Shown: positions 2,061 through 7,312 of the stretch, in pieces
Layout: every line of letters begins with the position of its first letter
Numbering within the stretch: position 1 is the stretch's first letter
Assembly (NCBI RefSeq): GCF_014117445.1
Contig: NZ_CP059851.1
Location: 2,294,001 to 2,358,000, forward strand
Reading direction: 5' to 3'
Length of the DNA stretch: 64,000 nucleotides
Source: Sandaracinobacteroides saxicola
GTDB lineage: Bacteria > Pseudomonadota > Alphaproteobacteria > Sphingomonadales > Sphingomonadaceae
Made by a program: the position numbers and the translations under genes
Notes under the pieces: generated by a model
Seen by the model: only the letters and a program-made list of their open reading frames with translations
Databases searched by the model: none
Told to the model about the DNA's origin: nothing

Positions 2061-2756
2061 TTACTCATCCTCAAACATACTACGCAATTGTTTTTCAACC
2101 ATTTCCAGCGCTTGGCCGTAGCACTGCAGCTGTTGTTTCATTTCGTCATGGTCGAGCGGGGCATAGTCCGCAGTCGTCCAAACACGAACATAGCGTTCCT
2201 TCGTACCCTTGATGCGGGGGAAGAAAATGAAAATCGCTTCTGAGCCCTGAAAGTCGGACAGTCGCAGGATACTTTCTGTTACAATCGTTGACATAATTCG
2301 TTTTTGATAGTCATCAAGTGCGACCGCGACCCATCCGACCACAAAAACCGGTTTGAGCTGTCCGTCCTTTAGTATGGTAAAGGTGGGTTCGACTGGAATT
2401 GAAACATTCCGACCAACAGGATAATTCTCCTTGAGGCCGGGGAAAACGTTCAACCCATCCAGCTTCTCACGGCCATTATAGCGAAAGAAGGCGGGAACGA
2501 TCTCGTACGCCATCGCTCGGGTTCGCGGGCTTGAGATAGCCGCAACCGACCGCATAGACTCTTCATAGGTCCGGCCGAAATGCACCGCATCGCCTATAAT
2601 TCGATACACTGCCTGTAGGCTACTTCTAGGCCTGCCAAGAACAAATGCCAAAAGAGCGCGAGCAGTATCATTCACGCGCTTGTAGTTGTATCGAACCCAA
2701 TTAGCAACCGACGGAGGCCGCCGTAGCTTCCTGATCAGATCGTCCGACTCGCTCAT
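2061..2756 (-). CDS. Unknown partner of the Panacea protein (candidate toxin/effector)
   Basis: A 231-residue protein with no family I recognise. Its ATG at 2756 overlaps the stop of the upstream Panacea gene in an ATGA junction, so the two are translationally coupled. It is Arg/Lys rich at the N-terminus (residues 9-40), has a hydrophobic mixed alpha/beta middle (about 100-185), and ends in an amphipathic, Glu/Gln-rich helix (about 202-231) that may form a coiled coil. No signal, membrane span or classic nuclease motif (PD-ExK, HNH, PIN) is obvious. Panacea proteins are known as antitoxin domains paired with many unrelated toxins, so this is a candidate toxin by position only. Its GC content is visibly lower than the flanking core genes. 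Confidence 0.6.
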   Translation of the reverse strand: MSESDDLIRKLRRPPSVANWVRYNYKRVNDTARALLAFVLGRPRSSLQAVYRIIGDAVHFGRTYEESMRSVAAISSPRTRAMAYEIVPAFFRYNGREKLDGLNVFPGLKENYPVGRNVSIPVEPTFTILKDGQLKPVFVVGWVAVALDDYQKRIMSTIVTESILRLSDFQGSEAIFIFFPRIKGTKERYVRVWTTADYAPLDHDEMKQQLQCYGQALEMVEKQLRSMFEDE

Positions 2757-3271
2757 GCATTAACCCCTTTCATACTGGCATCGATAATTATTTGAGGCGT
2801 TATTTCCATTCCTGGGTTTACTGGACCATCATGGTTCCATACCATATCCCAAGCACTTCCTGGTAGGTGAGATAAGCTTCGAAGACGCGCCGCGCTCAAA
2901 GAGATAAGGGGCTCTATGATTGCGCTGAACTGGCGGGCGTCGTTTTCAGCAATGCTGGGTTTGGCGATGACCATTTGACGAGAGATAACATCAAACCTCT
3001 TGGCGTATGTGTCTATCGGTTTGTCCCCGTGAACTTTGAAGTTACGATAAATCTCGGGAAAAACAGGTCCATGCTCCCAAGCTTCAATTTTAGCCTGCGT
3101 TATGATCCTGCCAGAGGTTACCAGACACGATTCGACAAGGAAATACAAAACCTTATTCAGCGCCATGTTCGTGAGAAAAGCTTTTCGAGATCGGCCATAA
3201 TCGAGAATAAAGTTCGCCAACTCCCTTACGTCGTATCCCTGATCTTGTTGGAACAAGTAGATATCCCTCAC
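2753..3271 (-). CDS. Panacea-domain (SocA-like, DUF4065) antitoxin protein
   Basis: A 172-residue protein with the Panacea signature: an ANFIL helix near residues 19-23, a LNKVLYF helix (38-44) and the diagnostic EAWEHGPVFPEIYR block (63-76). Known members include SocA, a proteolytic adaptor for the SocB toxin, and the PanA antitoxins of many toxin-antitoxin pairs. The frame begins at GTG 3271, with only a weak purine-rich ribosome site; the domain starts soon after, so little sequence can be missing. It lies 65 bp downstream of nrdB on the same strand and overlaps the next gene by 4 bases. AT-richer codon use than nrdB suggests horizontal acquisition. Confidence 0.8.
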   Translation of the reverse strand: MRDIYLFQQDQGYDVRELANFILDYGRSRKAFLTNMALNKVLYFLVESCLVTSGRIITQAKIEAWEHGPVFPEIYRNFKVHGDKPIDTYAKRFDVISRQMVIAKPSIAENDARQFSAIIEPLISLSAARLRSLSHLPGSAWDMVWNHDGPVNPGMEITPQIIIDASMKGVNA

Positions 3272-3336: not shown

Positions 3337-4380
3337 TTATTCGGCCGCGCCCAGCAGGACCCCCTGCCCTTCGTCCACGGCGTCGTTGGCGGCGGCGCCC
3401 TTGGCGGCGGCGCGTTTGTCGAAGGTGTCCCAGACTTCGTTCCAGTTGCCGCGCGTCGCCGCCTTCGAATATTCGGTGGCGCGGGTTTCGAAGAAGTTGG
3501 CGTGTTCGACGCCGTTCAGCAGCGGTTGCAGCCAGGGGAGGGGGTGTTCCTCGATCAGGTAGATGGGTTGCAGGCCGAGCTGTTTCAGGCGCCAGTCCGC
3601 GATGAAGCGGACATATTTCTTGATTTCCTTGGGCGTCATGCCGGGCACCGGGCCCATTTCGAAGGCGAGGTCGATGAAGGCGTCCTCCAGGCGGACGGTG
3701 CGCTGGCAGACGTCGGCGATGTCGTCCCGGACCGCCTTGGTAAGGCAGCCGCGTTCGGCGCAGAAGGCGTGGAACAGCTTGATGATGCCTTCGCAGTGGA
3801 GCGATTCGTCGCGGACGGACCAGCTGACGATCTGGCCCATGCCCTTCATCTTGTTGAAGCGCGGGAAGTTCATGAGCATGGCGAAGCTGGCGAAGAGCTG
3901 GAGGCCTTCGGTGAAGCCGCCGAACATGGCGAGCGTGCGGGCGATGTCGGTATCGCTGGAGACGCCGAAGGTCGCCATGTAATCATGCTTGTCGCGCATT
4001 TCCTTGTAGTTGAGGAAGGCGCTGTATTCGGATTCGGGCATGCCGATGGTGTCCAGCAGGTGGCTGTAGGCCGCGATGTGGACGGTTTCCATGTTGCTGA
4101 AGGCGGTGAGCATCATCTTGATTTCGGTGGGCTTGAAGACCCGGCCGTAATTGTCATGATAGCAGTTCTGCACCTCCACATCCGCCTGGGTGAAGAAGCG
4201 GAAGATCTGCGTCAGCAGGTTGCGCTCATGCTCGTGCAGCTTCTGCGCCCAGTCGCGGCAGTCCTCGCCGAGGGGGACTTCCTCGGGCATCCAGTGGATC
4301 TGCTGCTGGCGTTTCCAGAAATCATAGGCCCAGGGATATTCGAAGGGCTTGTAGCTGTTGGAGGCCTGGAGGAGGGGCAT
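3337..4380 (-). CDS. nrdB: Class Ia ribonucleotide reductase, beta (radical) subunit
   Basis: NrdB supplies the tyrosyl radical and di-iron centre that let NrdA reduce ribonucleotides to deoxyribonucleotides. The 347-residue protein keeps every key residue: metal ligands Asp67, Glu98, His101, Glu158, Glu192 and His195, and the radical Tyr105 in HIAAYSHLL (His101 to Tyr105 spacing as in E. coli 118/122). The ATG at 4380 follows the HEPN gene stop by only 3 bases, and its ribosome site (AAAGG) lies inside the HEPN coding end. The start codon region is duplicated at 5191-5204, so this copy appears to have been separated from its original leader. The C-terminal tail GVLLGAAE is not the usual acidic NrdA-binding tail I would expect. 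Confidence 0.95.
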   Translation of the reverse strand: MPLLQASNSYKPFEYPWAYDFWKRQQQIHWMPEEVPLGEDCRDWAQKLHEHERNLLTQIFRFFTQADVEVQNCYHDNYGRVFKPTEIKMMLTAFSNMETVHIAAYSHLLDTIGMPESEYSAFLNYKEMRDKHDYMATFGVSSDTDIARTLAMFGGFTEGLQLFASFAMLMNFPRFNKMKGMGQIVSWSVRDESLHCEGIIKLFHAFCAERGCLTKAVRDDIADVCQRTVRLEDAFIDLAFEMGPVPGMTPKEIKKYVRFIADWRLKQLGLQPIYLIEEHPLPWLQPLLNGVEHANFFETRATEYSKAATRGNWNEVWDTFDKRAAAKGAAANDAVDEGQGVLLGAAE

Positions 4381-4384
4381 GGGT
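4371..4384. repeat. 14-bp direct repeat, copy at the present nrdB start
   Basis: GGAGGGGCATGGGT here contains, on the minus strand, the nrdB start codon and first codons. An exact copy is at 5191-5204. The two bracket the HEPN/MNT pair with 806 bp between them. Confidence 0.7.
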
Positions 4385-4866
4385 TAGCCTTTCACGGGAA
4401 GGAGCGCCTGGCGGCGGAGAAAATCGGCGAGTGAGCTGTGGATGGCATCGAGCAGCGGTGCGGCGGCGATGGCATCGAGCAGGCGCTGATGTTGCTGGTG
4501 CGGGTTGAGCGGATATTCGTGGGCCAGGCGGTTGCGCAGGCGGACGAGTGCCGACCAGCCGGCGGCATCGGGGATGACGCCGAGCTTTTCCATGCGGTTG
4601 GCGATATCCCGCGCGGTCATCGGCGCGATGTCGACGCCATCGGCAATGAGCGCGGTGCGGAACATGCGGGCGAGAATATCCTGCTGCTGCTCGATGCGTT
4701 TCAGAAGCGCGGTGGCGGCGGTGCGCTGCACGCGATCGAGCGCGTCGAACGCGGCGGGCGATGCCGGCGGCGGGCCGAGCAGATCGAGTGTTTCCTGAAC
4801 GCCAACGGCAATCGTGGCCGCAGAGGAATCGAGCGCCTGGAGGATGGCGGTTTCGGGGGCGGTCAC
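4384..4866 (-). CDS. HEPN-domain toxin (HepT-like RNase)
   Basis: A 160-residue helical protein carrying the HEPN active-site motif R-x4-H-x-Y: Arg111, His116 and Tyr118 in RNRLAHEY. HepT toxins are metal-independent RNases whose conserved Tyr is oligo-AMPylated by the partner MntA. The gene starts at GTG 4866, overlapping the MNT stop in GTGA, so the two are coupled, antitoxin first. Its TAA is only 3 bases before the nrdB ATG and its last codons contain the nrdB ribosome site. The pair sits between nrdA and nrdB, an unusual place for a toxin. Confidence in the family is good from the motif and partner. Confidence 0.85.
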   Translation of the reverse strand: MTAPETAILQALDSSAATIAVGVQETLDLLGPPPASPAAFDALDRVQRTAATALLKRIEQQQDILARMFRTALIADGVDIAPMTARDIANRMEKLGVIPDAAGWSALVRLRNRLAHEYPLNPHQQHQRLLDAIAAAPLLDAIHSSLADFLRRQALLPVKG

Positions 4867-5159
4867 AGGAGGATCCCGTCGCGATAGCCGATCGTCTGGA
4901 ACGGGCCAGCGGGCGCGCCGCGGACGGCGAAGATGAGGTCCACGCGCTGCGGCTCGATGGCGCCGAACAGGAGGGTTTCGAACCGGTCAATGGCGGCGTC
5001 GCTGTTCCGGCCGGGATCGATTTCGAGATGCAGGTCGATGTCGCCGCCGCGCGCCGAATCGCGGACGCGGCTGCCGAACAGGCGCACGGCGACCGACGCA
5101 CCGAAGGCGTCGCGCGCGGCGGCCTTGATGGCGGTGGCTTCGTGGGCGGTCAGGCGCAT
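4863..5159 (-). CDS. MNT-type minimal nucleotidyltransferase antitoxin (MntA-like)
   Basis: A 98-residue minimal nucleotidyltransferase with GSRVRDSARGGDIDLHL: Gly29-Ser30, then Asp40 and Asp42, and a third acidic residue in RVDLIF. MntA antitoxins transfer AMP to the Tyr of the HEPN toxin and silence it. It starts at ATG 5159 behind a weak ribosome site. Just upstream, a 9-codon reading frame beginning at the duplicated nrdB start (5200) ends at 5171, so translation may reach this gene by reinitiation. It overlaps the HEPN gene by 4 bases. Confidence 0.85.
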   Translation of the reverse strand: MRLTAHEATAIKAAARDAFGASVAVRLFGSRVRDSARGGDIDLHLEIDPGRNSDAAIDRFETLLFGAIEPQRVDLIFAVRGAPAGPFQTIGYRDGILL

Positions 5160-5170
5160 GGAGGGCTGCT

Positions 5171-5204
5171 TCAGGGGTGGGGGGTTTGAGGGAGGGGCAT
5201 GGGT
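5171..5204 (-). other. Remnant of the original nrdB start, 9-codon stub
   Basis: On the minus strand AAGGA, 8 bases, then ATGCCCCTCC repeats the nrdB start exactly for 14 bases (5191-5204), after which the sequence diverges and stops at TGA 5171-5173. It looks like the ancestral nrdB initiation site left behind when the HEPN/MNT segment entered. Confidence 0.6.
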
Positions 5205-5279
5205 GGGGTCCTTGGCAAGAGATGTTTCTAGGGCTTCAGGCTCCCGGGTTTCTCATGAAAATGACTATCCGAACACGCG

Positions 5280-5435
5280 TTACTTACCCTTAGACTGCTT
5301 GTTTGGGGCCTGTGTAAGAACCGAAGCTGCAAGCGACTGTATCTGGGATTTTGTGATACTGCTGGGGTTTTGCAACGCTTTGCTGGCAATGGATGCGACC
5401 TTTGAAGAGGTCTGCTCGTTAGACTTGTTCGCCAT
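5280..5435 (-). CDS. Small basic Ser/Lys-rich protein (51 residues)
   Basis: A 51-residue protein with an AAGGA ribosome site 6 bases before ATG 5435, starting 11 bases after the nrdA stop. It is rich in Ser, Lys, Ala and Gln with no hydrophobic span, and has the pattern of a small SKVASIASKAL...SLAASVL family of unknown function that I recall as widespread in Gram-negative accessory DNA. Codon use (ACA, TTG, TCT, ATA) is unlike nrdA and nrdB. Its place in the reductase operon means it would be co-transcribed with nrdA. Function unknown. Confidence 0.65.
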   Translation of the reverse strand: MANKSNEQTSSKVASIASKALQNPSSITKSQIQSLAASVLTQAPNKQSKGK

Positions 5436-5446
5436 GTCGTTTCCTT

Positions 5447-7312
5447 TCACTGGCAAGCTAAACACTCGTCGTAATCCGTCGTTTCCGCCTGGATCACCCG
5501 CAGGTCCGGGGTGTTGTCGGCCTCCACGCCGCCGGCGAAGCCGGCGCGCTGGATGCTCTTGCTGCGGAGGTAGTAGAGCGATTTGATGCCGAGTTCCCAG
5601 GCCCGGAAGTGGAGCATCAGGAGGTCCCACTTCTCGATGTCGGCGGGGAGGTAGAGGTTGAGGGACTGCGCCTGGTCGATATAGGGCGTGCGGTCGCCGG
5701 CGAGTTCGAGCATCCAGCGCTGGTCGATCTCGAACGCGGTGCGGAAGGTGGCCTTCTCGTCGGCGGACAGGAAATCGAGGTGTTGGACGCTGCCCCCCAT
5801 CTCCAGCATCGAGTTCCAGACGCTGTCGGCGTTGCGGCCCTTTTCGATGAGCAGCTTTTCGAGGTGCGGGTTGCGCACGACGAAGCTGCCCGAGAGCGTC
5901 TTGTGGGTGTAGACGTTGGCCGGGATGGGTTCGATGCAGGCGCTGGTGCCGCCGCAGATGATGCTGATGCTGGCGGTGGGCGCGATCGCCATCTTGCAGC
6001 TGAAGCGCTCCATCACGCCCATGTCCTGCGCGTCCGGGCAGGGGCCGCGTTCGGTGGCGAGCAGCATGGAGGCTTCATCCACCTTGGCACGGATGTGGCG
6101 GAACATCTTCATGTTCCAGGATTTTGCCGTGGCCCCCTCGAACGGGATGCCGCGCGCCTGGTAGAAGCTGTGCAGGCCCATGACGCCCAGGCCGACGCTG
6201 CGTTCGCGCATGGCGGCATAGGCCGCGCGCTCCATGCCGGGTTCGGCGCGGGCGATGTAATCGGAGAGGACATTGTCGAGGAAGCGCATCACATCCTCGA
6301 TGAAGCGGTCGTCGCCGTGCCACTGGTCCCAGGTTTCGAGGTTCAAGGACGAGAGGCAGCAGACCGCGGTGCGGTCCTTCCCCAGATGGTCCGGCCCGGT
6401 GGGGAGCGTGATTTCGGAGCAGAGGTTCGAGGTGCTGACCTTCAGCCCCAGGTCGCGCTGGTGCTTGGGCATGTGGTTGTTCACATGGTCGATGAAGATG
6501 ATGTAGGGCTCGCCGGTGGCCAGGCGGGTTTCGACCAGCTTCTGGAACAGGGCGCGGGCGTCGACCTCGCCGCGTTTTTCGCCGGTTTTCGGGCTGACGA
6601 GCGTGAAGGGCCGGCCGTCGCGCACGGCGTGCATGAAGGCGTCGGTGATGAGGACGCCGTGGTGCAGGTTCAGCGCCTTGCGGTTGAAATCGCCGCTGGG
6701 TTTGCGGATTTCCAGGAATTCTTCGATCTCCGGGTGGTTGATGTCCAGATAGACGGCGGCGGAACCGCGGCGGAGCGACCCTTGGCTGATGGCGAGGGTG
6801 AGGCTGTCCATGACGCGGACAAAGGGGATGATGCCGCTGGTCTTGCCGTTGAGGCCGACGGGCTCGCCGATGCCGCGCACCCGGCCCCAATAGGTGCCGA
6901 TGCCGCCGCCGCGGCTGGCGAGCCAGACATTCTCGTTCCAGGTGTCGACGATGCCGTTGAGGCTGTCGGACACGCTGTTCAGGTAGCAGCTGATGGGCAG
7001 GCCGCGGCCGGTGCCGCCGTTGGAGAGCACGGGGGTGGCGGGCATGAACCAGAGGTTCGAGATATAGTCGTAGAGGCGCTGCGCGTGCGGCGCGTCGTCG
7101 GCGTACGCCGCGGCGACGCGGGCGAACAGGTCCTGGCAGCGCTCCCCGGGCAGCAGGTAGCGATCCTTCAGCGTGTCGATGCCAAACGCCGTCAGCAGCG
7201 AATCGCGCGCGTGGTCGACGGTGACCGGAAAGCGCGGCGCATAGACGCTGTGGCTGTTGGAAGGGGCGGTGAGCGTGTCGGCGCTGGCCATGGTTGGTGC
7301 CTGAAAGTCCAT
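5447..7312 (-). CDS. nrdA: Class Ia ribonucleotide reductase, alpha (catalytic) subunit
   Basis: NrdA reduces ribonucleoside diphosphates using the radical from NrdB. The 621-residue protein shows active-site Cys109 (ISCYLN), Asn296/Cys298/Glu300 (NLCSE), the second redox Cys at about 318 (AVCCLSS), the radical-transfer Tyr pair in SLYY, and the C-terminal shuttle Cys617/Cys620 in DECLACQ. The N-terminus begins close to the catalytic barrel, so the roughly 90-residue ATP-cone of E. coli NrdA is absent and overall dATP feedback inhibition is probably missing. ATG 7312 has AGGGG 8 bases upstream. nrdB is not adjacent: a 51-residue gene and the HEPN/MNT pair intervene. Confidence 0.95.
   Translation of the reverse strand: MDFQAPTMASADTLTAPSNSHSVYAPRFPVTVDHARDSLLTAFGIDTLKDRYLLPGERCQDLFARVAAAYADDAPHAQRLYDYISNLWFMPATPVLSNGGTGRGLPISCYLNSVSDSLNGIVDTWNENVWLASRGGGIGTYWGRVRGIGEPVGLNGKTSGIIPFVRVMDSLTLAISQGSLRRGSAAVYLDINHPEIEEFLEIRKPSGDFNRKALNLHHGVLITDAFMHAVRDGRPFTLVSPKTGEKRGEVDARALFQKLVETRLATGEPYIIFIDHVNNHMPKHQRDLGLKVSTSNLCSEITLPTGPDHLGKDRTAVCCLSSLNLETWDQWHGDDRFIEDVMRFLDNVLSDYIARAEPGMERAAYAAMRERSVGLGVMGLHSFYQARGIPFEGATAKSWNMKMFRHIRAKVDEASMLLATERGPCPDAQDMGVMERFSCKMAIAPTASISIICGGTSACIEPIPANVYTHKTLSGSFVVRNPHLEKLLIEKGRNADSVWNSMLEMGGSVQHLDFLSADEKATFRTAFEIDQRWMLELAGDRTPYIDQAQSLNLYLPADIEKWDLLMLHFRAWELGIKSLYYLRSKSIQRAGFAGGVEADNTPDLRVIQAETTDYDECLACQ

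Follow-up and report, generated by a model that had tools for sequence, protein, structure and literature searches.

A type VII HEPN/MNT toxin-antitoxin cassette, of a lineage otherwise resident, within its family, in the glutamate synthase operon gltDB, appears to have entered the ribonucleotide reductase operon nrdAB of Sandaracinobacteroides saxicola at the start of nrdB, leaving a copy of a 14-bp start region on each side. We put the probability of this reading at roughly two in three. It is built on five observations: the repeat is unique, the pair lies between its copies, 80 relatives lack the pair at this place, 12 of 12 other pairs lie in gltDB, and the pair of Sphingomonas folli is its sister. 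The analysed window is a stretch of 64,000 nt (contig NZ_CP059851.1, positions 2,294,001 to 2,358,000), and all coordinates below refer to it.

A HEPN/MNT pair between nrdA and nrdB

The locus is read on the minus strand and comprises the following features, given from nrdA to nrdB:

5447-7312, minus strand: nrdA, ribonucleotide reductase large subunit, 621 aa (Pfam PF02867, 1.7e-114; PF00317)
5280-5435, minus strand: small ORF of 51 aa in the stretch from nrdA to the insert, preceded by a good ribosome site (ORF list)
5209-5213, minus strand: AAGGA, putative ribosome-binding site of the ancestral nrdB start (anti-SD energy -5.1)
5191-5204, minus strand: upstream repeat copy, ACCCATGCCCCTCC (exact match, genome count, simulation)
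5171-5200, minus strand: leader ORF MPLPQTPHP, nine codons from the old nrdB start codon (ATG 5200), with presumed reinitiation
4863-5159, minus strand: MNT, predicted minimal nucleotidyltransferase antitoxin, 98 aa, GSX9DXD, with almost no ribosome site of its own
4384-4866, minus strand: HEPN, predicted HepT-like ribonuclease toxin, 160 aa, RX4HXY, in GTGA overlap with MNT
4388-4392, minus strand: AAAGG within the HEPN end, present nrdB ribosome site (anti-SD energy -3.2)
4371-4384, minus strand: downstream repeat copy, holding the working nrdB start codon at 4380 (exact match, genome count)
3337-4380, minus strand: nrdB, ribonucleotide reductase small subunit, 347 aa (Pfam PF00268, 1.4e-73)

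Only the MNT and HEPN genes are found between the two repeat copies, and they overlap each other by the 4 nt GTGA. The HEPN gene ends at the junction itself, because its stop codon TAA takes its last base from the downstream repeat copy, of which it is the first base. The start of nrdB follows two codons past the HEPN end, in the same frame. On the coding strand, no terminator-like site was detected from nrdA to nrdB and no promoter inside the nrdA-nrdB gap, and the leader RNA structure at the junction was no more stable than those of shuffled sequences. The 51-aa ORF upstream of the insert is present as a single copy in the genome; the sole relative found is a distant, unannotated one on a Geminicoccaceae plasmid (50% identity).

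The assignment of the pair to the type VII HEPN/MNT systems (HepT/MntA class I) is supported by sequence and model comparisons. The HEPN protein scores slightly below the Pfam cut-off for HepT-like proteins, and all 11 HEPN members give weak Pfam matches to the HEPN fold (HepT or NTase substrate-binding). Within RX4HXY, the residues R111, H116 and Y118 are invariant in the 11 sequences. A profile search of the PDB with HEPN matched HEPN toxins and HI0074. The AF2 model of HEPN (pLDDT 79) found 8yuf, 8xdj and 1jog as best matches, with a probability of 1.00 and a query TM of 0.63-0.70 at E-values of 2e-3 or worse; the matched structures were the Legionella HEPN, HI0074, the Aphanizomenon HEPN and HepT, all with modest E-values. 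In MNT, GS and DXD are invariant and spaced by 9 residues in 10 of 10 sequences, the described motif being GSX10DXD. NTP_transf_2 is matched weakly by all 10 MNT members (best 7.5e-6), with the window MNT at 0.0083, below the cut-off. The fold search with the MNT model (pLDDT 75) was not decisive.

Like HepT/MntA of Shewanella oneidensis (SO_3166/SO_3165; class I, type VII; PMC7641770), the window pair consists of two small genes with MNT upstream of HEPN, has RX4HXY in HEPN and GS..DXD in MNT, and yields a HEPN model that matches solved HEPN toxins. It differs in the MNT spacing (X9, not X10), in Pfam and NCBIfam scores below the curated cut-offs, and in being embedded in nrdAB. The best structural and profile neighbours of the window HEPN are HI0073/HI0074 and the Legionella pneumophila HEPN-MNT (PMC11586414), although the structural identity is 14-18% and the genomic setting is another one. 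Where such systems have been studied, MNT silences the HEPN RNase by attaching AMP to its motif tyrosine (PMC7641770, PMC11586414). By analogy, the window MNT would add AMP to Tyr118 of HEPN and hold the RNase inactive.

The apparently duplicated nrdB start and the absence of the pair from this place in relatives

A preliminary description of this DNA had proposed that a HEPN/MNT unit, bounded by a direct repeat with the nrdB start codon in it, was inserted at the start of nrdB. Its account of the 14-bp match, of the two genes enclosed by it and of the old start with its ribosome site and short reading frame was borne out, and the HEPN/MNT identity that it gave is supported. A whole-genome count found ACCCATGCCCCTCC exactly twice in 3.36 Mb, at 4371-4384 and 5191-5204 on the minus strand, which disposes of the possibility, raised in that description, that the repeat is common in this genome. 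In Markov simulations, 14 nt or more of the nrdB start region recurred in the gap in 4 of 20,000 trials with the window model and in 10 of 20,000 with the gap model, so that the chance of such a repeat is about 2e-4 to 5e-4. The longest repeat of this kind in relatives with a measurable nrdA-nrdB gap was 10 nt. Beyond the exact 14 bp, the two copies agree at 8 of 14 further positions (28 bp, 79%), a likeness that carries no weight in C-rich sequence.

Could the match have arisen by chance, given a common start motif in C-rich surroundings, with a plain gene pair between nrdA and nrdB? The sequence is indeed of low complexity, and copies with up to two mismatches are expected about once per window by chance. 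However, the uniqueness of the exact copies, the simulated probabilities and the shorter repeats of the relatives all make this unlikely, as does the upstream leader, which scores as an nrdB leader by itself. The latter result was obtained with a position model of start sites, for which the nrdB starts of 80 genomes were used and that of the window was withheld. Of the 2,148 ATGs in the window, all of which were scored, the working start at 4380 ranked first and the upstream copy at 5200 second. When the 16-nt leader, which has just four bases common to both repeat copies, was scored alone, 5200 ranked 8th and 4380 ranked 14th. The second rank of 5200, and the eighth rank of its leader alone, support the reading of ATG 5200 as the ancestral nrdB start. 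From there, translation would stop at 5173-5171, 11 nt ahead of the MNT start.

In a search reaching as far as 4.5 kb upstream of nrdB, 80 of 80 relatives lacked a HEPN/MNT match; for 13 of these the stretch read did not include nrdA. An insertion at the nrdB start is well supported, because these relatives lack the pair at this place, the start-site model recognises 5200 as an nrdB start and the genome has no further copy of the repeat. The opposite view, a pair ancestral in nrdAB and lost from the other genomes, could appeal to the variable nrdA-nrdB gaps of the family, which can be as short as 60 bp or exceed 4,000 bp and often hold unrelated genes. With none of the 80 relatives carrying the pair there, and with its closest kin residing in gltDB, we consider such a history scarcely credible.

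In the comparison with related nrdA-nrdB gaps, suggested earlier, the pair was missing, and the likeness to the window extends to length only. Without the insert, the window gap measures 246 bp, and those of three near relatives 251, 232 and 228 bp; the spacers are unlike in sequence. The predicted empty site is the leader at 5205-5220 joined to nrdB codon 1; one copy of ...AAGGACCCCACCCATGCCCCTCC would there lead directly into nrdB. No exact empty site was found among the relatives, and none is demonstrable because the spacer is not conserved and the genus comprises a single genome.

Other elements were seen in these spacers. Four near relatives (loci L037, L039, L041 and L042) have a common hairpin-like element after nrdA with TCCACGAC in the loop region; the loci of the four, this element included, gave no Rfam match. 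In 17 of the larger gaps (among loci L063-L116) there is a gene from a single family of small proteins (IKEHMEVIGADGVHVGTVD...), in most cases oriented the other way.

Related pairs at gltD-gltB

When 398 genomes of the family (Sphingomonadaceae) were searched with the HEPN profile, 11 had the protein, one of them being the window genome. Two more, Sphingomonas folli and Sphingomonas sp. BK345, came from a scan of named genomes. All 12 other pairs found in the family lie between gltD and gltB, the genes of the glutamate synthase subunits, with HEPN directly before gltB (S. folli, BK345 and genomes G357, G032, G193, G313, G405, G030, G150, G415, G027 and G063; in G357 the contig ends within MNT, so that the gltB side alone is visible). 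Most of them show start/stop overlaps, and their identity to the window pair is 23-66%. Distant relatives outside the family occupy other genomic places. The lineage of the window pair is thus otherwise found only at gltD-gltB in the family, a point missed by the preliminary description, and the window copy is the only pair found in nrdAB.

The window genome's own gltD-gltB gap contains no pair and holds three other genes, presumably DUF2059-like. One to three secreted DUF2059-like genes occupy this gap in many Sphingomonadaceae (loci L136 and L138-L166), and their start codon often overlaps the gltD stop; in other genomes of the family, gltD and gltB overlap directly.

The sister genomes G193 and G063 differ sharply at this place. 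Their gltD and gltB are mostly 82-98% identical, the MNT centre and HEPN 33-65%, and the drop in identity has a sharp edge at the gltB start. In the two loci (L127 and L188), the 5' and 3' ends of MNT are conserved, and the MNT centre and the whole of HEPN are strongly divergent. Since the flanks are conserved and the MNT centre and HEPN are not, the pair at gltD-gltB is, judged from these alignments, a polymorphic cassette exchanged there with matched toxin and antitoxin parts.

In a combined MNT and HEPN tree, the S. folli/BK345 pair comes out as the sister of the window pair (support 99/98). In the gltD host tree, the S. folli side falls into a 16-row clade without the window (100/100), and a pair tree constrained to the S. 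folli host clade was rejected (p-AU 7e-8). Because the pair tree conflicts with the host gltD tree, the pairs evidently move between lineages. As the root of the pair tree is weakly supported, the direction of movement, from gltDB to nrdAB, is favoured mainly by the count of 12 to 1. The window copy is best read as a displaced copy of a gltDB-resident cassette, now inside another essential operon.

Possible modes of entry and of translation in place

The preliminary description had taken the repeat for a duplicated entry site. The exact 14-bp repeat, unique in the genome and present at both ends, is what a transposon would leave, but the insert has no terminal inverted repeats, encodes MNT and HEPN only, hence no transposase, and has no second copy in the genome. 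The repeat may be a 14-bp target-site duplication. Joining of foreign DNA by short-homology (illegitimate) recombination, with the repeat as a duplicated junction or as what remains of a once larger duplicated stretch around the nrdB start, comes close to an even chance in our estimate. It would fit the missing inverted repeats and transposase, insert ends that by eye are unlike the gltD and gltB ends, and the cassette-wise swapping of gltDB pairs whose flanks are conserved, a pattern suggestive of recombination by homology, long or short. Transposition, however, would also produce a clean duplication of 14 bp that encloses the insert precisely. The G+C content of the insert is similar to that of the host, which speaks against acquisition from a foreign source in the very recent past.

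Candidate sources were sought. No donor copy was found elsewhere in the genome; the only other HEPN-like match belongs to a second, distant MNT/HEPN-like pair near a pckA-like gene (locus L034, about 1150-1915; G000:C1, about 562900-563600). Viral contigs searched with the HEPN profile and plasmids searched for MNT held no relative.

Anti-SD energies in the locus are -1.1 for MNT, -5.1 for the old nrdB site (leader) and -3.2 for the nrdB site in the HEPN end. These values are modest by comparison with random 20-mers (median -2.8, best 5% -7.6). The cassette is probably transcribed together with nrdA, from that side. Translation of the nine-codon leader would then start from the old nrdB ribosome site, and at the leader's end ribosomes could restart at MNT. 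HEPN would follow MNT through the GTGA overlap, and nrdB would restart from AAAGG within the HEPN end. The cassette thus probably uses nrdB's old ribosome site through the leader, and nrdB would be coupled to HEPN/MNT expression. Embedding in an essential operon would give a steady supply of antitoxin, tied to nrdAB expression, and would make most imprecise deletions of the pair harmful to nrdB.

The same arrangement could be seen as regulation of the host operon rather than selfish addiction, with HEPN cutting the nrdAB (or gltDB) message under stress. The restriction of 12 of 12 other pairs to a single operon, in most cases with overlapping start and stop codons and despite their divergence from the window pair, speaks for this, and the use of ATP by MNT in studied systems (PMC7641770) would suit a control in which MNT restrains HEPN according to the ATP level. 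Against it stand the sparse presence (11 of 398 family genomes), the cassette-like exchange at gltDB and the conflict with the host tree, which suggest a mobile module. We regard host regulation of this kind as unlikely.

A HEPN-MNT pair inside a metabolic operon is already known: in Thermus thermophilus, one is reported to be inserted in the lysine biosynthesis operon of HB8 and not of HB27 (PMC2701414). That pair is strain-variable at its place in the operon; the window pair differs in its site at nrdB, in the start codon apparently copied on entry and in a source lineage tied to gltD-gltB. The part of the literature covered held nothing on point on HEPN/MNT with gltB/gltD or nrdA/nrdB, and neither the residence in gltDB nor the site in nrdAB was described in it. 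One lineage keeps a single glutamate synthase junction across many genera, where it is exchanged cassette-wise; in a single genome the pair instead adjoins the start of the essential gene nrdB and may now control its translation. The idea that embedding in an operon fixes a toxin-antitoxin pair can thereby be tested directly. More doubtfully, the family's HEPN/MNT cassettes might specialise in start-codon junctions of essential two-subunit enzyme operons, being swapped before gltB and movable to nrdB, taking over the target's ribosome site and making host translation pass through the toxin gene, a kind of operon-locked addiction.

Directly 3' of nrdB, at 2061-3271, lie a SocA/Panacea-type antitoxin gene and a 231-aa partner of no known family. 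No flanking repeat similar to the 14-bp one was found there, and no such pair was seen around nrdB in the 80 relatives. With about 44-53% G+C in its DNA and about 59-68% in the nrd genes, this is a second, probably recent toxin-antitoxin-like pair flanking nrdB.
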